DNA from: Bolinopsis microptera
Lineage: Eukaryota; Ctenophora; Tentaculata; Lobata; Bolinopsidae
DNA length: 64,000 bases
Assembly: GCF_026151205.1 (NCBI RefSeq)
Contig: NC_087082.1
Span: 2,198,001 to 2,262,000, forward strand
Direction of reading: 5' to 3'
Shown: positions 9,001 through 59,722 of the stretch, in pieces
Position numbering within the stretch: position 1 is the stretch's first letter
How the letters are laid out: the number at the start of each line of letters is the position of its first letter
The notes under the pieces: generated by a model
Databases searched by the model: none
What the model saw: the letters and a program-made list of their open reading frames with translations, nothing else
Told to the model about the DNA's origin: nothing
Made by a program: the position numbers and the translations under genes

Positions 9001-9976
9001 AAGTTGTATATAAACATGGCCATTCTGCACAATTTGCACTCATTCAAAAATCTCTAGGGCCTTTATAGCCCAATTTACCAGATACCCATATTTTTGCATG
9101 ATTTCTGGAACCGAAAATCAGTTTATCGCCAATAACTGAAAAAGTAAGCACTTTAAGGCATATGTTTCTTCGTAAGTCATATATAAATATGCCAATTGCG
9201 GTTCTTTTGCACTATATTCAAAGACTCTATCACAATCCTATCAAAAGTTAGTAAAATGGGCTTAGCGCCACGTCCAAAATGGTTTTTGGCGAATTTCTCG
9301 AAAAGTAAGGATTTTAGGCCATGTGTTGATCAATAACTCTTATGTAAACATGCATATGCGGCTTCGTTTAAGCCTATTTTGAAGTCTCTACGACCTTCAG
9401 AAGCAAGGGGTCAGTTACGTTATTGGGTCAATATGGGCGTGGCCCTCCTGGGTTTTCCCCACGGTAAAAAAAAAGTCTCCAACCGAAAATTGTTTATTCA
9501 TACCTTTGGGAAGGTCTGTGCAAGGTTGTGTGAGTATCTGAAGATTTGCAGGCAGCTGTCCTTAAATGACTGGACTAATAAAGGACTCACGTTCGTTTAG
9601 TTTGACGCTGACATAATCATCAGATTTAGGGGTTTTACCAGTCCCTGAGATTGGTTTAGCACTGCTTCCTAGCGCACTTTCTATAACAGCTAATTTCTTT
9701 CTATCCTCGTTGTTATATAACGGCTGTACCCAGAATCTGAGGATGGGAAAGGGTGACTATGAGATAGGAAGAGTGTTTGTTATGATCACTTGAAAATAAC
9801 AATCTCAGTGCATATCAGTGCGGCCTGGGGAACGTGAATTTATTTTCTGGTCATAATTCATATGCAATATTTCATTTGCTTTCTTACAAGGTATAACGCG
9901 GAACTCACTTGTCGATATCAATGATATGAGTAACCAGGGCTTCGAACGAGTGTGAGGGTTGCGGTTCCTCTCCCAT
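8..9976 (-). CDS. Multi-Tudor-domain protein, about 20 exons, 3' end outside the window
   Basis: Exons, high to low: 9909-9976, 9591-9736, 7925-8050, 7487-7707, 7168-7325, 6894-7029, 6551-6731, 6308-6411, 5191-5301, 4170-4253, 3774-3955, 3506-3605, 2518-2675, 2036-2195, 1744-1898, 1375-1487, 1011-1124, 749-842, 354-527, 8-162. Each has AG/GT borders and the reading phase carries through all joins except that the last acceptor (162 or 188) is uncertain. Three extended Tudor domains are readable: exons 1-4 (FWVQPL; AYIQLIDYGSDEQVP), exons 5-8 (FYVQYRA; DWFRAEIKQ; ILKDFGNVQLV; RFYIELQDE) and exons 14-17 (FVCLLKKYFDQVD; QFYRAKIINID; VLFIDYGNINLVPL). Between domains 2 and 3 lies a Gln/Gly/Ser/Asn-rich linker with repeated MTSHA(P/T)G. 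After domain 3 comes an Arg/Ser/Glu-rich tail. Such proteins bind methyl-arginine Piwi proteins in germ granules (family knowledge). ATG at 9976 is the best visible start, 565 bp downstream of the ADH5 stop; a further 5' exon is possible. Closest vertebrate relative (TDRD1/TDRD6 type) is inferred. Confidence 0.88.
2684..3435. repeat. 39-bp minisatellite in a Tudor-gene intron
   Basis: About 19 tandem copies of a 39-bp unit occupy almost the whole intron between Tudor exons 3506-3605 and 2518-2675. On the minus (sense) strand each unit carries a pyrimidine tract followed by CAG (ccctctctccag), nearly identical to the real acceptor at 2676-2681. Some copies carry +6, +5, -2 or -1 base changes, so the frame is not preserved. 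The His/Pro/Gln-rich reading frame over it is therefore not taken as coding. Confidence 0.9.
5465..5606 (-). repeat. tRNA-like sequence, probable SINE head
   Basis: On the minus strand there is a good RNA polymerase III box A (TGGCCTAGTTGTTAGAGCA) and box B (GGTTCGAATCC) at tRNA spacing. The acceptor ends GGTTAGG and CCTAGTC can pair with two G-U pairs. Against a working tRNA: the anticodon arm contains a 16-base perfect palindrome (CCTTCTGCGCAGAAGG), about five extra bases lie between T stem and acceptor, and the T stem has a mismatch. It sits in an intron of the Tudor gene, in sense orientation. A tRNA-derived SINE head or a decayed tRNA gene fits best; I cannot define the SINE tail. Confidence 0.55.
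6121..6301. repeat. 14-bp minisatellite at a splice donor
   Basis: About 13 nearly perfect copies of ggaacagttgctaa. The array ends within about six bases of the splice donor of Tudor exon 6308-6411, so on the sense strand the intron begins with the donor and goes straight into the repeats. Confidence 0.95.
8250..9577. mobile_element. 1.3-kb foldback element (long inverted repeat) in a Tudor intron
   Basis: The left arm (8250-about 8880) is matched in reverse complement by about 8958-9577, with a loop of roughly 75 bp. The ends read TAGTCCAGTCATTTA on the left and the inverse on the right. By eye only scattered substitutions separate the arms. Each arm contains three degenerate direct repeats of about 200 bp, each with a core like TTTATATA(N)nTTACTTTTCGAG. 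No transposase frame is seen. It lies wholly in the intron between Tudor exons 9591-9736 and 7925-8050, whose splice phases fit across it. A non-autonomous foldback/MITE-like element is inferred; the target duplication is ambiguous. Confidence 0.9.
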
Positions 9977-10541: not shown

Positions 10542-11164
10542 CTAAAAGTGGATGACTGGTCGGAGAGCTTTTCCCTGGTGCATAAGTTCGAAAGCTTCAT
10601 TAATTTGGTCTAGAGGTAGCCGCTGAGTTATGAACTCGTTCACCTGAAAATATTAACATAAATAATTATAATAATAATTAGGGGGGGGGGGGGGGTCCAA
10701 GGGGAACTTTGGGGAATTTTGGGAAGCCTTTTTTTGGGGAACTTCAGGAAACCTGGGGGACTTTCCCAAAATTCCCCAAAAAAATTATCATGCCAAAAAA
10801 ATTATCATGCTGCAAGTATCAACAAGTAAGTTAAGATTCAATACCTTATAATAACATACATGTTAACATTAATGGGTATTAATGTATATTAGAGAAATTT
10901 TGAATAATTTTGGGGAGTTTTAGGGAGATTTGGGGAACTTTTTTTTGGGGAACTTCAGAAATCTTGGGGGACTTTCCCAAAGTTCCCCAAAGTTCCCCTT
11001 TGGACCCCCCCCCCCCCCCCCCCTAATTAGACAGAAAATAATTATAAATGAATGTCCACAAAACCAGCTCGACTAAATAATATAAATTCTATCATTACCT
11101 TCATCTTGCCGGACAGGAAGTCCTCGACCAGTCGGGGAACATCGTCTCTGCTCTTCCAGCCCCC
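10542..11164 (-). CDS. ADH5: Class III alcohol dehydrogenase, last two coding exons
   Basis: Exon 11099-11164 encodes [21 protein letters not shown] and exon 10542-10643 encodes [20 protein letters not shown] and on to ...LRPVIHF-stop. The join is phase 0 with a proper GTAATG donor and TTTTCAG acceptor. This matches the C-terminus of the S-(hydroxymethyl)glutathione dehydrogenase family (vertebrate ADH5 has the parallel GGWKS...VPKLV...INKAFELMH region). It continues exons 1-5 at 50163-53321 on the same strand, but the segment between the ...SAHKG exon and GGWKS is not visible anywhere. Directly upstream of GGWKS lies RPS16 sequence rather than ADH5 coding sequence or an ordinary intron, although AAAG at that border could act as an acceptor. 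The intron between these two exons holds a MITE (10681-11023). Confidence 0.9.
10681..11023. mobile_element. MITE with poly-G/poly-C ends in an ADH5 intron
   Basis: A 343-bp element with terminal inverted repeats of about 90 bp: a G run then TCCAAGGGGAACTTTGGGGA at the left, and the inverse at the right. TAATTA flanks both sides; being palindromic it could be a target duplication or part of the repeat (a TAA/TTA duplication would suggest PIF/Harbinger). It has no coding capacity and lies between the last two ADH5 exons. Confidence 0.88.
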
Positions 11165-11463
11165 TTTGATCTCTTTCTTCGATGTTTCATCTACGAACTT
11201 TTGGTAGTAAGCTACGAGAGATTTAGAGATGGACTGTCGGATAGCGTACACCCGGGCAGTTGCTCCACCACCTCGAACTCTAATCCTGATGTCGACACCC
11301 TCGAATCTCTTAGGACGGGCTCCAACACTTTGTATCTGAGGGCAGAAGGTTCCAGAAGATCGATAGGTACTCCGTTTACTTTGATCATACCATTTCCTTC
11401 TTTGGTGTATGCCACTGCCGTGGCGGTCTTCTTGCAACCAAACACTTGCACTGATTTGACCAA
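11165..11463 (-). pseudogene. RPS16: RPS16 (uS9) retrocopy, array copy 1, degraded
   Basis: Intronless sequence encoding [20 protein letters not shown] onward and [20 protein letters not shown], characteristic of ribosomal protein S16 (uS9). Compared with copies 2 and 3 it has lost the start codon region and about 14 bp in the [12 protein letters not shown] stretch, which shifts the frame. It stops abruptly after KKEIK, where it joins the ADH5 GGWKS exon directly. It cannot make full S16. Confidence 0.88.
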
Positions 11464-12441
11464 TAACTGGAAATAACATTGGAACTCGTTCAAAGAAATA
11501 TCGGCCCAATGTCTCATCATCTCCAGGAGCAAGACAGGAATTCAGAGGTGGATAAAGTTTAACAGCATCGTGGTAGTGCTGCTGCAAATTCCGGATGAGT
11601 CGCATCAAACAGTTGAAAATGTCTGGTACAGACGATTGAGGGAGCCTCACCTGATTAAAGAGTCTGTTTCTTCTCAATCTTTCTCTGTACAACTCATCAT
11701 TATATTCCATAACCTCAGGGATAGGACACCCATGTGCAAAACTCTCCAAGCTGCTCCATATATTTTCCATGGATGATATCATGCTTTCGTTTTGATATCG
11801 ATCTTTGAAAGTGTTGAAAAATTGTTCATTACACTTCATTCTCTCACTATATGACCAAAAAAACGGGTGTTTTAATATCTCAGTTGTGTTAGGACGTGAA
11901 CTGATAACACCACTTATGCAGGTGTCAACAAGCATATCAGCCAATATGGAGTCTCCCAGGTAATCGTAATCTAGAGGAGAATAGAATATGTCGTCACCTG
12001 GCCGGTTTAAAGTCGAGCTTATATACGAGTATCTTTTTGCTTTCTTTATAAACCTGTTTCTGTGCTCATCAGATCCAAATGGATGGATTTGCTGCTTATT
12101 TCGTCCCTCAGACAGCACATAATGTACAATACATCCATATGCAAACACGTCAATGGCTGGAGTCAACTTCATTGACCCATTAAGGACCTCTCTGGCCATC
12201 CAACCATGAGTGCCAACAGCAGCTTGTGACACAGACAATTTCTCTTTCCCATCTTTCATCTTCCTTGTAAGCTCTAACTCACAGATAACAGCTTTGTATC
12301 CATAAGTCATAACGGTTATCACTATCATCACGTACAAGTATATTCTGAGGTTTAAGATCCCTATGTAGATAGCTTTGACTGTGAATATAACGAAGACCAC
12401 AAGCTATACCGAACAAGAGATTTTTCTTGAAGCCCCAATCG
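11464..12441 (-). pseudogene. Kinase C-lobe plus KEN domain fragment, array copy 1
   Basis: Reads [11 protein letters not shown] (catalytic loop, HRD intact) in one frame. A one-base frameshift near 12290 then moves it into a long frame: VICELELT where DFG is expected (ELE instead), GWMAREV instead of [17 protein letters not shown], then a KEN-type nuclease region with [13 protein letters not shown]1/RNase L family members have R-N-x3-H at this place, so R, N and H are kept. The N-lobe and ATP-binding loop are absent. The KEN end is cut by a deletion that joins it to RPS16, creating a 452-codon chimeric frame (11042-12400). An IRE1-like or RNase L-like pseudokinase origin is inferred. Confidence 0.8.
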
Positions 12442-12861
12442 TCACAAGCCGTCATATTTGGCACGGGCACCTGGACCTCCGAATTTCTTGGGTTCGCATC
12501 TTCTGGGATCGGCCACCAACATTTACTTATCGTAATTCAGAAGGATATCTTTGATCTCTTTCTTCGATGTTTCGTCTACGAACTTTTGGTAGTAAGCTAC
12601 GAGAGATTTAGAGATGGACTGTCGGATAGCGTACACTCGGGCAGTTGCTCCACCACCTCGAACTCTGATCCTGATGTCGACACCCTCGAATCTCTTCTTT
12701 CCGAGAAGTAGGACGGGCTCCAACACTTTGTATCTGAGGGCAGAAGGTTCCAGAAGATCGATAGGTACTCCGTTTACTTTGATCATACCATTTCCTTCTT
12801 TGGTGTATGCAACTGCCGTGGCGGTCTTCTTGCGACCAAACACTTGCACTGATTTGACCAT
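12442..12861 (-). pseudogene. RPS16: RPS16 (uS9) retrocopy, array copy 2
   Basis: ATG at 12861 opens [20 protein letters not shown] and the frame continues through the S16 core to [13 protein letters not shown], then an in-frame TAA at 12523. Without that TAA the same frame goes on with LVADPRRCEPKKFGGPGARA and stops at 12442. So this is a near full-length intronless S16 with one nonsense codon and the last few residues lost. Normal S16 ends GGPGARARYQKSYR (family knowledge). Immediately 3' it runs into the kinase fragment of copy 1. A retrotransposed mRNA origin is inferred from the lack of introns. Confidence 0.88.
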
Positions 12862-12877
12862 CGTCTCTCGGCTCAAA

Positions 12878-13922
12878 TTATTTGTTATCCAAATATATTA
12901 GTATGCCGGCGCTACTATCTTCATACAATCTGGCAAACATGTATATAACTGGAAATAACATAGGAACTCTCTCAAAGAAATATCGGCCCAATGTCTCATC
13001 ATCTCCAGAAGCAAGACATGAACTCAGAGGTGGATAAAGTTTAACAGCATCGTGGTAGTGCTGCTGCAAATTCCGGATGAGTCGCATCAAACAGTTGAAA
13101 ATGTCTGGTACAGACGATTGAGGGAGCCTCACCTGATTAAAGAGTCTGTTTCTTCTCAATCTTTCTCTGTACAACTCATCATTATATTCCATAACCTCAG
13201 GGATAGGACACCCATGTGCAAAACTCTCCAAGCTGCTCCATATATTTTCCATGGATGATATCATGCTTTCGTTTTGATATCGATCTTTGAAAGTGTTGAA
13301 AAATTGTTCATTACACTTCATTCTCTCACTATATGACCAAAAAAACGGGTGTTTTAATATCTCAGTTGTGTTAGGACGTGAACTGATAACACCACTTATG
13401 CAGGTGTCAACAAGCATATCAGCCAATATGGAGTCTCCCAGGTAATCGTAATCTAGAGGAGAATAGAATATGTCGTCACCTGGCCGGTTTAAAGTCGAGC
13501 TTATATACGAGTATCTTTTTGCTTTCTTTATAAACCTGTTTCTGTGCTCATCAGATCCAAATGGATGGATTTGCTGCTTATTTCGTCCCTCAGACAGCAC
13601 ATAATGTACAATACATCCATATGCAAACACGTCAATGGCTGGAGTCAACTTCATTGACCCATTAAGGACCTCTCTGGCCATCCAACCATGAGTGCCAACA
13701 GCAGCTTGTGACACAGACAATTTCTCTTTCCCATCTTTCATCTTCCTTGTAAGCTCTAACTCACAGATAACAGCTTTGTATCCATAAGTCATAACGGTTA
13801 TCACTATCATCACGTACAAGTATATTCTGAGGTTTAAGATCCCTATGTAGATAGCTTTGACTGTGAATATAACGAAGACCACAAGCTATACCGAACAAGA
13901 GATTTTTCTTGAAGCCCCAATC
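12878..13922 (-). pseudogene. Kinase C-lobe plus KEN domain, array copy 2, intact KEN end
   Basis: Nearly identical to copy 1 at a 1482-bp offset. It has the same HRD loop (frame 13761-13952), the same one-base shift, and then an open frame 12878-13882 ending with the natural-looking C-terminus [20 protein letters not shown] and a stop. The KEN residues R, N and H ([10 protein letters not shown]) are present; DFG is ELE and APE is ARE, indicating an inactive kinase module of the IRE1/RNase L type. There is no N-lobe and no promoter of its own is evident. The S16 ATG of copy 2 lies about 17 bases after the KEN stop. Confidence 0.82.
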
Positions 13923-13923
13923 G

Positions 13924-14343
13924 TCACAAGCTGTCATATTTGGCACGGGCACCTGGACCTCCGAATTTCTTGGGTTCGCATCTTCTGGGATCGGCCACCA
14001 ACATTTACTTATCGTAATTCAGAAGGATATCTTTGATCTCTTTCTTCGATGTTTCGTCTACGAACTTTTGGTAGTAAGCTACGAGAGATTTAGAGATGGA
14101 CTGTCGGATAGCGTACACTCGGGCAGTTGCTCCACCACCTCGAACTCTGATCCTGATGTCGACACCCTCGAATCTCTTCTTTCCGAGAAGTAGGACGGGC
14201 TCCAACACTTTGTATCTGAGGGCAGAAGGTTCCAGAAGATCGATAGGTACTCCGTTTACTTTGATCATACCATTTCCTTCTTTGGTGTATGCAACTGCCG
14301 TGGCGGTCTTCTTGCGACCAAACACTTGCACTGATTTGACCAT
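13924..14343 (-). pseudogene. RPS16: RPS16 (uS9) retrocopy, array copy 3
   Basis: Sequence essentially the same as copy 2, offset by 1482 bp: ATG at 14343, the S16 core, an in-frame TAA at 14005, and readable homology to 13924 where it runs into kinase copy 2. Sharing the same nonsense codon shows that the TAA predates the duplication, or that the repeat is an assembly duplication. Confidence 0.86.
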
Positions 14344-14359
14344 CGTCTCTCGGCTCAAA

Positions 14360-14986
14360 TTATTTGTTATCCAAATATATTAGTATGCCGGCGCTACTAT
14401 CTTCATACAATCTGGCAAACATGTATATAACTGGAAATAACATAGGAACTCTCTCAAAGAAATATCGGCCCAATGTCTCATCATCTCCAGAAGCAAGACA
14501 TGAATTCAGAGGTGGATGAAATTTTACAGCGTCGTGGTAGTGCTGCTGCAAATTGCGGATAAGTCGGATCAAACAGTTGAAAATTTCTGATGAAGCCGAA
14601 ATAGAAAATCTTTTTCTTTTTCTTTTGAGTCTTTCTCTGTACAAATCATGATATTTCAAAACCTCAGGGATAGGACACCCATGTGCAAAACTCTCCAAGC
14701 TACTCCATATATTTTCCATGGATGATATCATGCTTTCGCTTTGATATCGATCTTTGAAAGTGTTGAAAAATTGTTCATTACACTTCATTCTCTCACTATA
14801 TGACCAGAAAAACGGATGTTTCAATTTCTCAGCGGTGGGAGGACGGGCAATGATAACACCACTAATGCAGGTATTCACAAGCATGTCAGCCAATATGGAG
14901 TCTCCCAGGTGATCGTAATCTAGAGAAGAATAGAACATGCCGTCATGTGGCCGATTTAAAGTCGAGCTTATATACGAGTATTTTCT
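14360..14986 (-). pseudogene. KEN-domain fragment, array copy 3, 5'-truncated and diverged
   Basis: Open frame from [12 protein letters not shown] to the shared C-terminus. Against copies 1 and 2 it differs at many residues (for example LKHPFFWS kept, but RKRKRFSISAS replaces [17 protein letters not shown] and SLDYDHLGD replaces PLDYDYLGD). The homology stops sharply near 14986 in unrelated AT-rich DNA, so the HRD region is missing. It is the oldest or a paralogous member of the array. Confidence 0.8.
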
Positions 14987-15249
14987 CAATCAACGAAATA
15001 TAACACTGATAAAATTTGACAATTGAACAATTCATCGAATAAATAATCTGAAATAATTGAAGAAAAATAAACGAAATTTATAACGTTGAATAAATGAATT
15101 ATAAATGCCCTTCTTAAAAGGATCTACTGCTAAAATTATGTCCCACTCAAGTTTACAATTCACGATGATTGCTTTTGAGATTCATTAGAGTGGAGAGTTG
15201 CAGCTGATAGATCTTCCGTCTTACTTCAATGGTTTTCTCCGGAGAATTG

Positions 15250-15337
15250 CATTGACATAATCATCAGATTTAGGGGTTTTACCGGTCCCTGAGATTGGTT
15301 TAGCACTGCTTCCTAGCGCACTTTCTATAACAGCTAA
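15250..15337 (-). pseudogene. Duplicate of Tudor exon, cut by the assembly gap
   Basis: 88 bases match part of Tudor exon 9591-9736 (encoding LAVIESALGSSAKPISGTGK and onward to SDDYV) with about one difference. Downstream of SDDYV the sequence is unrelated and reaches a stop. The other side runs straight into the N gap. It could be a second Tudor locus, a partial duplication or an overlapping contig end. Confidence 0.8.
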
Positions 15338-15437
15338 NNNNNNNNNNNNNNNNNNNNNNNNNNNNNNNNNNNNNNNNNNNNNNNNNNNNNNNNNNNNNNN
15401 NNNNNNNNNNNNNNNNNNNNNNNNNNNNNNNNNNNNN
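15338..15437. other. Assembly gap (100 N)
   Basis: Exactly 100 N, the usual placeholder for a join of unknown size. Open frames counted across it are meaningless. Confidence 0.99.
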
Positions 15438-16243: not shown

Positions 16244-19200
16244 TTTTTTAATCAATAAACTTTCAAATTGTTATTGAACTGTCCAGAGGTACTTAATTAA
16301 ATGGGTTTTAAACACGGATGGCCTTGAGATTTCCCTTAATTCATAAGGGAGTTTATTCCAAAGAATGTGTGCTCTGTAAAAGTAAGACTTAGATATGCCT
16401 GAACATCTGGTCTGGCTTGACGTAAGGTTTTGTGGAACTTGAGGAGAAATGTCAGATGTGATCGCCTTAACCTACTTCCCATGAAACGTCGTAAGTAAGG
16501 TGGAAATGTCACAACTGACATGTCATAAAAAATATTATGAAAATATAATATATCCTTGTAATCAAACCTTACCGAGAGTGGAAGGATATTTAGTTCCTTA
16601 CACGCTATGAAATACCTTTTTTTGTCCCTAAGGCTCAAGTAAATATCATTAAGGATCCACTTGATACCTCTTTTTTGTATCGATTCAAGTTTCTCCACCG
16701 AGGTTTCTGAATGAGGCCGCCAGACAATTGTGCAGTGTTCGAAATGACTTCTAACCTGAGATAGATAGAAGGCCCGACGTTTTTTAGTGTTCTTGGTGAA
16801 GTAACATGTTCTTTTTAGAAGGCCTAACCTCTGACTAGCCTTAGAGTATATCATATCACAGTGATGTGACCAATCTAACTTACTATTGATATGTACTCCA
16901 AGATCTTTTTCAATGTCTGTGTATTCGATAGCCGTTTCATTCATTGAGTACACAAAATTAACACTACGATTCATAGAATATGCTCGGGTAATAGAAAGAA
17001 CGTGACTTTTTGAAGGGTGAAACACCATCTTATTATGATGTGCCCAATTTTGAAGACTGTTAATATCCCGCTGGAGCAGCCAATGGTCATCCTGAGACGT
17101 GATTCTACGCCATAGTTTTGTATCATCAGCATACATGGTTATATTTGTTTCCGGTGACAAATCATCTGTAATGTCATTAAGAAATAGTATAAATAAAGTA
17201 GGCCCTAAAATTGAGCCCTGGGGGACACCTGATCTAACCTGACAGGGAGCAGACATTTTATTTCCAATGACAACCCTTTGGTATCTGTTTTCAAGGTAGC
17301 ACTTGAAGAATCTCAGTAGAGATGCATCAATGTTATATTGTTCTTTGAGCTTCAACAGAATTATGTCGTGGTTGACAGAATCAAAAGCTTTTTGGAAATC
17401 AAAGTATATTATGTCAGTGCGAACATTGTCATTGAGAGATAGGGCTAAGCTGTCACAGAAATTTACTAGCTGAGTTGTACATGATTTCCTACTCATGAAA
17501 CCATGTTGACGTTGATCAATAAGATGTTCACATCGATTGAGCAATTCATCCCGGATTACTTTTTCGTAAACTTTCATAATAATGCTTGTCAGAGAAATTG
17601 GCCTATAGTTGTTAACTTCAATTTTAGAGCCTTTTTTATGAACTGGAACAACGTTTGCCATTTTCCAATCTGCTGGAATACATCCAGTTTTATAAGAAGC
17701 TTCAAAAAGGATAGCAAGAGGCTTAGACAGGCTCACTGAACAGTACTTTAAAATTCTTCCATGGATATTGTCGGCCCCTTGCGCTTTACTTGGATCAATA
17801 TTTTCAAGTAAACCTTTGATTTTACAAGTGTCGAAATTGACCTGAAAATCACGGTCACTGGAAAAGTCGATATCTATATCATAATCACTACCCTCTGTAA
17901 ACTGTTCGTTAAAATATTTATTGAATAACTCACACTGTCCTTGCGGATCGGACCGTAGGCAACCATTGTAGCTGACTGTTTCAGGAATGCGATTAGAGTT
18001 TGATTTAGATTTCACAAAAGACCAGAACTTTTTGTTAATGAGATTTCTGTTATCATCATCTTCAAAGTTTGCGTCCAATTTTGCATCAACGAGATTTTTA
18101 AAATCCCTCCTAGCTTTGGAAAATTTTAAATATTTTTTTGGATTAGAAGACTGTTTCCATTCGTCATGTAGTCGCTCCTTTTTTCTACATAAATCAAAGA
18201 CATCTGAGTCAAACCATGGGGGTTGAAATTCATCGGAGACAGATATCTTAGGAATATGTGAATTACAATGAGAAGTGAAAATAGTATTGAAAACTGACCA
18301 GGCCTCTTCGACTGGTTTACCACTAAGTAGATGTTCCCAGTTTTCAGAATTCAGTGCATTATTTAAATTGGTCCAATTGGCCCTTTTGAAGCTATAGATT
18401 TTTCGTTTGGTAGACTTTTTCTTTCTAGCGTTAAGTCTTATGTCAAATCTTATCGCATAGTGATCCGACCCACAAATACCATGTTTACTGTCAACAATTA
18501 ATTCTGATATAATTTCTGGCTTATCCGTCAAAACTACATCTAGAACATTTCCCCTGTAATGTGTAGGGTCTGTTACCAGCTGCTGTAAAGATAAATCATT
18601 AAACGTATCAATGAATGCTTGTTCAATAGGAACAGAGGAGGAGCCCTCATCCCATCTGACCTGGGGCATATTCAAATCACCAACCAAGGTAATGCTCTGT
18701 ACTCTTCTACGCCTACGGATGTTATGTAGGTATTGCTTGACTCTATCATGGTTATCATTGCCAAGTGTGCCAACTCTGTAGAACGAGCTTAATATGGATT
18801 TTCTTCCTAACTTGTCAGAAAGCTCAATACTCAAAATCTCGGCTCTACATTTGACAGGAATGATTTTAGATTCTATGTCAAGACAATGTTTTATGGCAAT
18901 AAGGACACCACCCCCATTTACTCTGAATTTCCGACTATTCTGGGGGTCCGGGGGATGAGTAAAGCTAGAACGGTCAAGTCTAAATACTTTGTAATCAGCT
19001 GTCGAGATGATTTCACTATCATGGATATTGTCCTTTAACCATGTTTCATTATAAACTACAATATCTGGTTTATTGATATAAATAAAATGGTTTAGTTCGT
19101 GAATTTTTGTAGAGTGGAGAGTGGGATTTGCATCTCCAAGTTCACCAAAAGGGATCAAGCCCTGAACGTTACAATAAAAAACTGAGCAGTTTCCCGGGGG

Positions 19201-19800
19201 TCCTGGATTTTTCATGCTAGGGTTACAAATAAAGATAAGGAGAAAGTTTATGAGTAGTATCCAAAGGTAAAGTGATGCAGTTATATTTTGTAGATATGGG
19301 ATTAAGCCTCGTTTGGAATTGTATTTAACAAACAACGTATGTAGTGTTTTACCTCTAATAGATAAGCTACTCATTGTACGTCTAATTGCAATACCAAAGA
19401 TAACAAGGTAGAAATTGCAAAGTAAATTACCAAGACTGTTAATATTTAGTAGGAGTGGAGATTTAATAAGCTGTATCAGTTTAGCAGGGTTTGTAGGTGG
19501 GTTTTCCAAAATACAGGTGGTAAAACAGAGTAACATAACAAGGACGAAATAATAGTACATAAAAGCAAGACATATGTGATGTGGTTTGAATGAGTTTTGA
19601 ACGGGTGTGGAGTGTATTACTGAATTCTTTGTTCTCTTCTTGTTTGAGTGGCTATTATTAAAGTAGCCAATACGTTTTCTATATGTTTCTAACTCAATCA
19701 TGTGAAATCTAACAATAAAACGATAAAACGACCGACTGTGGAGCAATAATTCCCTTTACGGTGTGTAATTTGTACTTGTATTATTGTCCGTGTCCAGTTT
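16244..19800 (-). mobile_element. CR1-like non-LTR retrotransposon, apparently full-length ORF2
   Basis: One long open frame (16336-19746) encodes endonuclease plus reverse transcriptase. After the stop a short 3' UTR ends near a poly-A-like tract (seen as the T run at 16244-16252 on plus). No ORF1 was found. The 5' boundary near 19800 is approximate. It lies in the same orientation as the genes around it, in the assembled span between the two parts of ADH5. Confidence 0.88.
16336..19746 (-). CDS. LINE endonuclease/reverse transcriptase, 1136 aa, intact
   Basis: N-terminal about 180 residues hold three hydrophobic segments (about 59-79, 98-120, 159-174) and the motif NPSMKNPGPP. An NPGP at this place recalls the 2A-like peptides of some non-LTR elements, but the DxE part is missing. 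The apurinic endonuclease domain spans about 190-435, with NETWL (233-237), GDLN (356-359) and GSDHYAIRF (426-434). The reverse transcriptase spans about 695-880, with YRPISLTS, FDFQKAFDSVNH (782-793), SGVPQGSILGP and MYADD (871-875). A C-terminal region of about 250 residues follows. The domain order and motifs are those of the CR1/L2/jockey group; CR1-like is my best call. No stop or frameshift interrupts it, so the copy is young. Domain positions are counted by hand. Confidence 0.93.
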   Translation of the reverse strand: MLHSRSFYRFIVRFHMIELETYRKRIGYFNNSHSNKKRTKNSVIHSTPVQNSFKPHHICLAFMYYYFVLVMLLCFTTCILENPPTNPAKLIQLIKSPLLLNINSLGNLLCNFYLVIFGIAIRRTMSSLSIRGKTLHTLFVKYNSKRGLIPYLQNITASLYLWILLINFLLIFICNPSMKNPGPPGNCSVFYCNVQGLIPFGELGDANPTLHSTKIHELNHFIYINKPDIVVYNETWLKDNIHDSEIISTADYKVFRLDRSSFTHPPDPQNSRKFRVNGGGVLIAIKHCLDIESKIIPVKCRAEILSIELSDKLGRKSILSSFYRVGTLGNDNHDRVKQYLHNIRRRRRVQSITLVGDLNMPQVRWDEGSSSVPIEQAFIDTFNDLSLQQLVTDPTHYRGNVLDVVLTDKPEIISELIVDSKHGICGSDHYAIRFDIRLNARKKKSTKRKIYSFKRANWTNLNNALNSENWEHLLSGKPVEEAWSVFNTIFTSHCNSHIPKISVSDEFQPPWFDSDVFDLCRKKERLHDEWKQSSNPKKYLKFSKARRDFKNLVDAKLDANFEDDDNRNLINKKFWSFVKSKSNSNRIPETVSYNGCLRSDPQGQCELFNKYFNEQFTEGSDYDIDIDFSSDRDFQVNFDTCKIKGLLENIDPSKAQGADNIHGRILKYCSVSLSKPLAILFEASYKTGCIPADWKMANVVPVHKKGSKIEVNNYRPISLTSIIMKVYEKVIRDELLNRCEHLIDQRQHGFMSRKSCTTQLVNFCDSLALSLNDNVRTDIIYFDFQKAFDSVNHDIILLKLKEQYNIDASLLRFFKCYLENRYQRVVIGNKMSAPCQVRSGVPQGSILGPTLFILFLNDITDDLSPETNITMYADDTKLWRRITSQDDHWLLQRDINSLQNWAHHNKMVFHPSKSHVLSITRAYSMNRSVNFVYSMNETAIEYTDIEKDLGVHINSKLDWSHHCDMIYSKASQRLGLLKRTCYFTKNTKKRRAFYLSQVRSHFEHCTIVWRPHSETSVEKLESIQKRGIKWILNDIYLSLRDKKRYFIACKELNILPLSVRFDYKDILYFHNIFYDMSVVTFPPYLRRFMGSRLRRSHLTFLLKFHKTLRQARPDVQAYLSLTFTEHTFFGINSLMN

Positions 19801-49910: not shown

Positions 49911-50010
49911 NNNNNNNNNNNNNNNNNNNNNNNNNNNNNNNNNNNNNNNNNNNNNNNNNNNNNNNNNNNNNNNNNNNNNNNNNNNNNNNNNNNNNNNNNN
50001 NNNNNNNNNN
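49911..50010. other. Assembly gap (100 N)
   Basis: Exactly 100 N. It lies 153 bp beyond ADH5 exon 5, where the missing ADH5 exon would be expected. Confidence 0.99.
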
Positions 50011-50136: not shown

Positions 50137-54319
<4,183 letters not shown>

Positions 54320-58035: not shown

Positions 58036-59722
58036 AATCTTGCCTAAAATAATGTTTGAATCTTCATTTTAACGTTTTTTGCTCAATTTGCCACCTTTCA
58101 CCTGCACTATTAAGATAAATGCCAGAAATCACTTCACATGTGGTAAAAAATAATTTGGAAAAAAATGTAATTTGGAATTTTTTTAGTGGAAAACGCGACA
58201 GACATATCGATATTAAGTATAAACTTTGGCGCAAAACGCGCAACAGGTTCCTGATGCGCGTCAAAGCCGCGCACAGTTACCTGTATTCTAATTGCCTTCG
58301 TTCTTCAGCAAACGGGTTCCTGTGCTGAAGAACGTCTAAAAATAGCATCCACGTGGGTTGTGTGCTCGAAGCTGCTCTTCTCGGTTAAAATGCAACGTTT
58401 TCGGTATCAATTTCTATTTTAACTGTCTTTTAACAGGAAGTGGCATTGATAGCGGATGTGTAACCTGTTAATCTGATGGATATCGATCACTGCGGTAGTG
58501 GGATGGATCAAACATGAAGAGAAATCAAAAATTGGCCGCTGAATTGATTAGCTATTATATGAATTCTCCTATTTCATGTTAGTTATATCAAATAAGCGTT
58601 TAATAATATCTTCTAATTTTGACTTTCTGACGGACGGGTAATTGAATCTCGATTGGCCGATTGTTCATCGATAATTAACCCAAAACAAATTCCAGGAACT
58701 AACGATTGATATTACGAGTGAACCCTCGCCCAGGCAAGCTTCCCCTCCAATTACACTTCCTTGCCTAGCTACCTCTCCAACCCAAAGAGATGATAAAAAC
58801 GCATATCTCGGTGGTAATCAAATTGTTAGGAGATGGTGTGTTTTGTCAGATCCATTAATAGACTGAAACATTTCGCCAGCTGTCAACACAGAAAATAACC
58901 CCCAAATAGTTTAGGGGAAATAATAAGACGCCTTTAGTTGGAGTTTGCGTTAAATCGGGGTTTTGATTGTTCTGTTAATTGTTATTAAGCAGCGAAATCT
59001 ATGTTAAAGTTTGATCTTAATTTAGTGGTTGTTTTCATTTAGAACTTTTAAATATTTCAAAACTGTAGGAGTATCATATCACATACAATGTTCTCCTTTA
59101 ACGTGACAACAAATCTGATATTACCGTATTACTAAGGATTATTAGGCAGTTAAAGAACTGTAACTTTACGAAACTTTTAGATGTTAAATTCAGCCTGTTA
59201 TTTACATTTAAACAAGAGTGATACATTTTCAGATATAATTGTCAGTATTTCTGAAACTGATCAACTTCAAAAGCATACGTGTTTTAAGACAAGTTACACG
59301 TGTTCATTATACGTCAACGACAATATCTTTGCATATTCTTCAGTTTTAATACTTTCAACACTACCAATTATAACAAATAATATGATATCATGCATATGAT
59401 GTTGTAACATTGAACCGTTGAATAGTTTCTTACCTGATATAAGCCTTTTCCTTGTCGCATCAAACGGGATCAATAGAAATTTACCTAAGAAAGAATTTCA
59501 ACCATTCTACTCGTAAATAATATTCCAATCCGGATTTTACATATAATCCATCCCTATATGGACCCTCAAACTTGAGTACTGAGTATTAGGTTTAGTAAGT
59601 TTTGTTTTCGTAATTAGTTTTATTCAGTATGATACAGAAGGAATGTATTTAATGTAGTTATTGACTATTGAGGAGTCCTTACTCTCCTCACGTCCGTAAA
59701 TGGAGTTTGCTTTCTACCATAC
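58036..59722. other. AT-rich intergenic DNA
   Basis: No exon is supportable. Separates the minus-strand retrotransposon remnants from the plus-strand gene at 59.7 kb, whose promoter should be in the right-hand part. Confidence 0.4.

Follow-up and report, generated by a model that had tools for sequence, protein, structure and literature searches.

A spliced-leader-tagged RPS16 retrocopy as the probable seed of a probably dead tandem array in the ctenophore Bolinopsis microptera

How did pieces of two unrelated genes, ribosomal protein S16 (RPS16, or S16) and an IRE1-like kinase-KEN protein, come to alternate three times in a ctenophore genome? The question is raised by a 64,000-nt stretch of Bolinopsis microptera (C11:2198001–2262000), which we call the window in its entirety and which was compared with a genome of 264.65 Mb in 232 contigs (C-numbers are contigs, L-numbers loci taken from the same genome). 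On the minus strand, from 14,989 to 11,164, kinase/KEN and RPS16 pieces follow one another in alternation, three of each, as an earlier note on this DNA had described, and direct repeats with a spacing of 1,482 bp define the repeat unit of the array. Our reading, to which we give a probability of about 0.78, is that an RPS16 mRNA carrying a spliced leader (SL) was retrocopied into a copy of a kinase-KEN gene, and that duplication of the DNA then produced an array that is very likely dead now.

Two of three RPS16 copies carry a spliced-leader remnant

Outside the array, searching the genome with the repeat unit returned S16 only at C7:7866441–7867034 (best candidates only). This RPS16 gene has a 172-bp intron with GT...AG ends, which is absent from all three array copies; the retrocopy origin proposed by the earlier note is thus upheld by an intron-bearing parent. 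The RPS16 pieces of the array are descendants of one processed mRNA. In the two better copies, at 14.0 and 12.5 kb, 411 of 417 bases agree with the spliced parent, and the pair is identical over 398 of 398 bp including flank; the third shows 6 mismatches and one 13-nt gap over 312 columns. Compared with the parent, the copies have an in-frame TAA at a serine codon, and two substitutions are common to all three, which fits a single insertion followed by duplication. The better copies end at GCCAAATA, short of the last codons, and run directly into kinase C-lobe.

The 5' ends of these copies point to the kind of mRNA that was copied. In the parent, an apparent acceptor, TTTAG, lies 10 nt upstream of the ATG, and homology between copy and parent stops at this TTTAG (blastn extends it by about 6 nt more through the likeness of TTT-AG). 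In two of the three copies the bases preceding the acceptor position are ATAACAAATAATTTGAG, the 3'-terminal 17 nt of a spliced leader, and this remnant occupies the position of the parental TTTAG. An SL remnant at the parental acceptor position indicates that a trans-spliced mRNA was copied; we infer that the parental acceptor is used in trans, and the RPS16 mRNA would be expected to begin with the full leader followed by CCAAGAGACG. From the third piece, the leader remnant and the start codon were removed by a deletion of about 84 bp. An ordinary exon of the 5' untranslated region was considered for the 28 nt upstream of S16 and rejected: the 28-mer (≤3 mismatches) occurs at two array sites and one other place, and its last 17 nt are the leader.

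At L009, RPS16 lies close downstream of a gene that by eye resembles mitochondrial ribosomal protein S10. An apparent acceptor stands right before each ATG of the pair, an operon-like arrangement.

The array and its flanks are composed as follows, in window positions.

15,338–15,437: assembly gap, 100 N (sequence)
15,253–15,337, minus: 85-nt fragment that recurs at 9609–9693 (99%) and abuts the gap (repeat comparison)
14,985–15,252, minus: 3' end and adjoining 3' flank from a neighbouring KEN gene, internally deleted in places (93–96% to L010 5398–5580 and 5709–5794, and to L012)
14,386–14,984, minus: KEN fragment A, end of the C-lobe and most of KEN (91.3% to L012, 87.9% to L010; PF06479 above cut-off)
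14,371–14,385, minus: filler of unexplained origin between KEN A and SL remnant
14,354–14,370, minus: spliced-leader remnant, 17 nt, at the head of the S16 copy (leader match)
13,937–14,353, minus: RPS16 processed copy, 3'-truncated, with in-frame TAA (411/417 bases as in spliced parent)
12,904–13,936, minus: KEN fragment B, its frame shifted by a 7-nt insertion near 13,783–13,789 (95.8% to L010)
12,889–12,903, minus: filler between KEN B and the second SL remnant
12,872–12,888, minus: spliced-leader remnant of the second S16 copy (leader match)
12,455–12,871, minus: second RPS16 processed copy, no difference from the 14-kb copy across 398 compared bp (alignment; 411/417 to spliced parent)
11,463–12,454, minus: KEN fragment C, with the same 7-nt insertion near 12,301–12,307 (95.8% to L010)
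11,164–11,462, minus: third RPS16 piece, SL and start codon gone, 13-bp internal deletion, 3' side cut (spliced-parent alignment)
11,099–11,163, minus: what is left of an ADH5 exon, joined to the S16 piece (comparison with human ADH5)
10,542–10,643, minus: last ADH5 exon (comparison with human ADH5)

The leader and its candidate genes

A 41-nt leader, TTTTAATACTTTCAACACTACTATATAACAAATAATTTGAG, ends in this 17-mer, and beyond it the DNA differs between loci. With at most one mismatch the 17-mer is found at 2,187 genome sites (1,069 + 1,118), against 28 (10 + 18) for the reversed pattern, and the full leader with at most three mismatches at 1,473 sites (694 + 779), against none for the reversed control. 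Among the exact leader matches listed, at least 35 fall at C3:13511056–13533390, mostly 591 bp apart. Two units of this cluster (L081) were inspected: in both, the leader is followed by a GTAAG donor and then, by eye, by an Sm-like ATCTTTTGG and a 3' stem-loop, and the L081 unit has a match to SmY RNA that remains below threshold (26 bits, cut-off 39, E 0.0022). We read the units of this cluster as putative SL RNA genes, whose leader would be added by trans-splicing. Part of the leader, searched as text, had no match in the open-licence literature.

For leaders elsewhere, we sampled 60 loci, the first 30 of each of two match lists; all lie on C1 or C2, and those from the second list had been chosen for GT after the leader. 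These loci contain 69 leader 17-mers, or 54 once repeats are removed (29 from the first list, 25 from the GT list). The upstream 24 nt are also leader-like (≤4 mismatches) at 45 of the 54 sites, and at the other nine truncation, insertion or chance may account for the difference. An SL RNA body accompanies only two of these sites outside the cluster (L055 and L076), and on this count we rejected the idea that the sampled leaders are SL RNA genes. The upstream flanks of 31 exact 41-mer sites are little alike (G at -1 in 19, A/T at -2 in 27), as would be expected if the 5' end of an RNA is the end of the insertion; the same dissimilarity led us to discard insertion of long interspersed nuclear elements (LINEs) into SL RNA genes.

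Some leaders have particular arrangements. Head-to-head pairs only a few bases apart occur at C1:7307505–7307590, C1:16284611–16284695 and C2:10955123–10955206, and short tandem series, many in steps of 181 bp, at C2:1844690–1845296 and C2:5123581–5124265.

Origin and state of the kinase/KEN pieces

Relatives of the KEN part, which the earlier note had proposed to seek in the genome, were found on the same contig: the unit search gave 10 further places of kinase/KEN type at 1.44 Mb and 1.77–1.80 Mb of C11, where the genes stand in tandem clusters. Five complete kinase-KEN open reading frames (ORFs) in L010 and L012 are each a single, intronless open frame. The earlier note had described both components of the array as intronless; this is informative for S16, which lost the parental 172-bp intron, but not for KEN, whose paralogues are single open frames. 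In Pfam, all five intact ORFs have a strong match to PF00069, and PF06479 is present below cut-off in 5 of 5. No ankyrin repeats or other sensor domain matched in Pfam within these five ORFs, separate upstream exons not having been searched, and under the same limit the roughly 20–98 aa ahead of the kinase match are too short for the luminal domain of IRE1. The best match of the intact paralogue at L012 7032–8555 among solved structures is chain 4pl3 (IRE1; E 8.2e-35), over residues 37–470, covering kinase and KEN. A profile search of the genome with PF06479 gave at least six places above cut-off, two of them within the array, and the open-licence literature held no match for invertebrate RNase L/KEN kinases. 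One ORF in L010 (7918–9663) has its N-lobe repeated in part.

Within the array, Pfam run on five ORFs detects the kinase C-lobe (PF00069) in KEN B and C, PF06479 (Ribonuc_2-5A) above cut-off in KEN A and B and under it in KEN C, and Ribosomal_S9 in the 12.5-kb S16 ORF and the fused last ORF. The stretch RNLQQHYH retains the R, N and H that the earlier note had pointed out, which we take to be the nuclease positions. DFG and APE are altered, as it had also observed, but this is not peculiar to the array, given that intact paralogues are altered too (e.g. DLE and GWMARE). The C-terminus that had looked natural is not one: KEN A and B end at GGCA, 27 codons before the end of the L010 paralogue, and the ILIYLDNK and stop found there are translated filler and leader remnant. 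A useful KEN protein made by read-through, suggested earlier, appears unlikely from the damage to the frames, with N-lobes missing from the array fragments, KEN A starting inside the C-lobe, and KEN B and C being thrown out of frame beyond HRD by a common 7-nt insertion. The array would thus be a compound pseudogene, very likely dead, from which neither expression nor a product is to be expected.

The pieces are not all alike. Over about 0.99 kb, KEN B differs from KEN C at 7 sites, of which 6 cluster towards S16; KEN A has 87.5% identity with C, and the third S16 piece has its 13-bp and ~84-bp deletions. KEN A is closer to L012 (91.3%) than to L010 (87.9%), and KEN B and C are closer to L010 (95.8%) than to L012 (90.8–90.9%). 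To the left of KEN A stands a neighbouring KEN gene's 3' end, with deletions; the order matches that of L010 and L012, and the region has the look of a decayed copy of part of the KEN cluster. We also considered whether the KEN family itself consists of SL-headed retrogenes and rejected this, the leader 17-mer (≤3 mismatches) being absent from L009–L014.

How the array may have formed

The observations suggest the following course. A mature RPS16 mRNA, with its cis-intron removed and a spliced leader added in trans, would have been reverse transcribed, with LINEs presumably supplying the machinery, and a single insertion would have placed it close to the end of one copy of an IRE1-like kinase-KEN gene. 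Duplication of the DNA in tandem, with one breakpoint where the S16 copy ends on its 3' side and another where the kinase C-lobe starts, would then have given rise to the 1,482-bp KEN-S16 unit, and later deletions and exchange with KEN paralogues may have changed the outer copies.

Several observations weigh against this course of events. Neither a poly-A tail nor a target-site duplication is visible in the S16 copies, as would follow from the loss of their 3' end. The third S16 piece lacks the leader, and the 15 nt separating KEN from the SL remnant are unexplained. Since KEN A and KEN B/C resemble different paralogues, more than a simple tandem duplication must have taken place. Finally, assembly error may play a part, given how nearly identical the units are, the interrupted ADH5 and the gap at 15,338.

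This last point concerns the right-hand neighbour of the array, ADH5, an exon of which (11,163–11,099) at the array's end had gone without mention in the earlier note. Matches to ADH5 lie on the minus strand, five at 53,312–50,161 and one at 10,649–10,551, in addition to the exon remnant, and the third S16 piece joins this exon midway at 11,164. The portion corresponding to human residues about 286–319 is missing from the gene in the window, and when it was searched for in the genome, with the query in human letters, only the exon remnant matched; the remnant itself has a single place in the genome. Two assembly gaps, 15,338–15,437 and 49,911–50,010, lie within the ADH5 span of 10,542–53,312. 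Either the array broke ADH5, or assembly created a false join, or a gap hides the half that is missing. The last ADH5 intron contains, at 10,681–11,024, an element with long G/C runs and 45-nt inverted repeats.

An assembly artefact, in which a real retrocopy owes its unit count and its junctions with ADH5 and the left flank to a collapsed or chimeric assembly, is compatible with our reading, and we regard it as a possibility of some weight, at less than even odds. The assembly was built with wtdbg, scaffolded with HiRise and gap-closed with TGS-Gapcloser, according to the available part of its description (PMC10232365), which makes such join errors possible. Besides the ADH5 exon cut midway, whose missing half has no other place in the genome by the human-letter query, the gap at 15,338–15,437 stands beside the 85-nt repeat of 9609–9693, and the S16 copies are identical across 398 bp. 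The ADH5 joint and the left end of the array may therefore be assembly errors. On the other hand, the KEN copies and the third S16 piece bear distinct substitutions and deletions, and no assembly slip can turn the parent into an intronless, SL-headed S16.

The earlier note had suggested a chimeric S16-KEN transcript that was retrocopied whole; this, or a unit that is an expressed fusion gene, we consider very improbable. The pieces do share one orientation within a repeated unit, and in the last copy an open frame of 452 aa runs through KEN, S16 and ADH5. However, the joint coincides with no intron of either parent: exon 2 of the RPS16 parent continues through it, and the KEN paralogues have open frame there. 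In addition, the start of S16 is out of frame in the 452-aa ORF until the 13-bp deletion, KEN B and C have their frameshift in common, and the SL remnant sits between KEN and S16, indicating that S16 began its own mRNA. The capture of several gene fragments as cargo of a Helitron-like DNA transposon is just as improbable, for although several gene fragments adjoin and the 85-nt repeat flanks both sides, no S16-KEN unit occurs outside the array among the 17 matches listed (best candidates only, transposon ends not having been searched systematically), and an SL at the start of S16 requires an RNA step.

Leaders at the head of other possible insertions

If the S16 copies are insertions of a trans-spliced RNA, what do the other leaders head? 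Within about 1.5 kb after the leader, open frames of at least 200 aa were found at 5 of 29 sites of the first list and 20 of 25 of the GT list. Three open stretches behind leaders were compared with Pfam; one matched an AlkB-like oxygenase and two the LINE endonuclease PF14529 (38.2 bits, and 26.4 bits, just under the cut-off of 27.4). Other leaders head repeats that are alike over only about 74–113 nt (six of the pairs compared), and the leader-headed pair L029/L032 is alike for 1.15 kb. The window itself has a decayed leader at 59,370 (plus strand), and the repeat behind it is related to L020 (77% over 156 nt).

A second gene-like copy, in L025 (minus strand), has a leader ahead of a 484-bp body. 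This body matches C3:14105339–14106681 in three separated blocks, which makes a parent with introns probable, and C3:9948910–9949308 without intron-sized gaps. Both SL-headed gene-like copies that were searched, S16 and L025, hence have split relatives.

We give even odds to the wider proposition that retroposition in this genome routinely copies trans-spliced RNAs, including those of LINEs, and that most of the ~1,400–2,200 dispersed leaders are insertion scars and not leader genes. A competing explanation for the LINE-like elements, which would leave the S16 array unaffected, is that their leaders form a common 5' promoter module comparable to Pr77, which the elements would have inherited or captured, and are not trans-spliced anew. 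This we find somewhat unlikely. Many SL-headed LINE-like elements start with GTATG, as if the shared piece extended past the leader, which speaks against a purely trans-splicing view, but these belong to the sample that was selected for GT after the leader. Trypanosomatid elements have a common 77-nt 5' promoter, as stated in the available part of PMC8190864; yet the gene-like copies S16 and L025 are also leader-tagged here, and this needs trans-splicing. More speculative, and in our view improbable, is that an inserted leader could act as acceptor for a new leader, such that retroelements would renew their 5' end at each round. The 3' end of the leader is a T-rich AG preceded by a branch-point-like TACTATATAAC.

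Rfam run on 17 loci gave 25 matches, of which 24 were below cut-off, mostly microRNA models on simple repeats. The one above is a type I Hammerhead ribozyme at L031 2060–2106 (minus strand; 35.9 bits, gathering threshold 34). The window also contains, at 16,336–19,746 (minus strand), an ORF of 1,136 aa that by eye is LINE endonuclease/reverse transcriptase-like, and the leader 17-mer (≤2 mismatches) was not found near it.

Comparison with known systems

LINE-mediated retrocopies of ribosomal protein mRNAs are familiar as processed pseudogenes. Like these, the S16 of the array is precisely intronless, lies on another contig than its parent, has a stop codon and is truncated; unlike them, it has an SL remnant at its 5' end, has lost its 3' end and was duplicated in tandem together with a fragment of a neighbouring gene. 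The KEN part resembles IRE1 in that L012 7032–8555 matches over kinase and KEN, and differs from IRE1 and RNase L in that its paralogues are single open frames in tandem clusters, with no ankyrin match, and that the copies in the window are fragmentary. The array itself is ordinary genomic debris, and its value lies in the leader tag, which indicates that a trans-spliced mRNA was rewritten into the genome and which is also found on other insertions. The uncommon features are this tag and its frequency.

Related ideas on SL-tagged retrogenes have reportedly been raised for Paulinella, to judge from titles and the first lines of abstracts. In dinoflagellates, with their DinoSL relicts, and in Perkinsus, SL-tagged retrogenes are known (PMC6050394, available part). 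As in those, a retroposed mRNA has a genomic copy of the leader at its 5' end; in contrast to them, the host is a ctenophore, the leader is a different one, and it also heads LINE-like elements and short repeats. DinoSL retrogenes also have leader doublets (PMC6050394, same part), which were not looked for systematically in the present genome. In the open-licence literature we found no SL-tagged retrogenes in any animal. If the phenomenon is general, a search for the leader would list retrocopies and full-length retroelement insertions, even those with an intronless parent.

Leaders have been counted in other ctenophores, with 718 in Hormiphora and 491 in Mnemiopsis (PMC8527503, available part). 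The Hormiphora leader, also present in many copies, is related to the 41-nt leader described here, the two having CAACACTACT and AATTTGAG in common. The available part of that report speaks of leader sequences or spliced-leader loci, with retroposition unmentioned, whereas 52 of our 54 off-cluster sites are without an SL RNA body. If insertion of trans-spliced RNAs proves general, it would change how the hundreds of leaders counted in these other ctenophore genomes are read.

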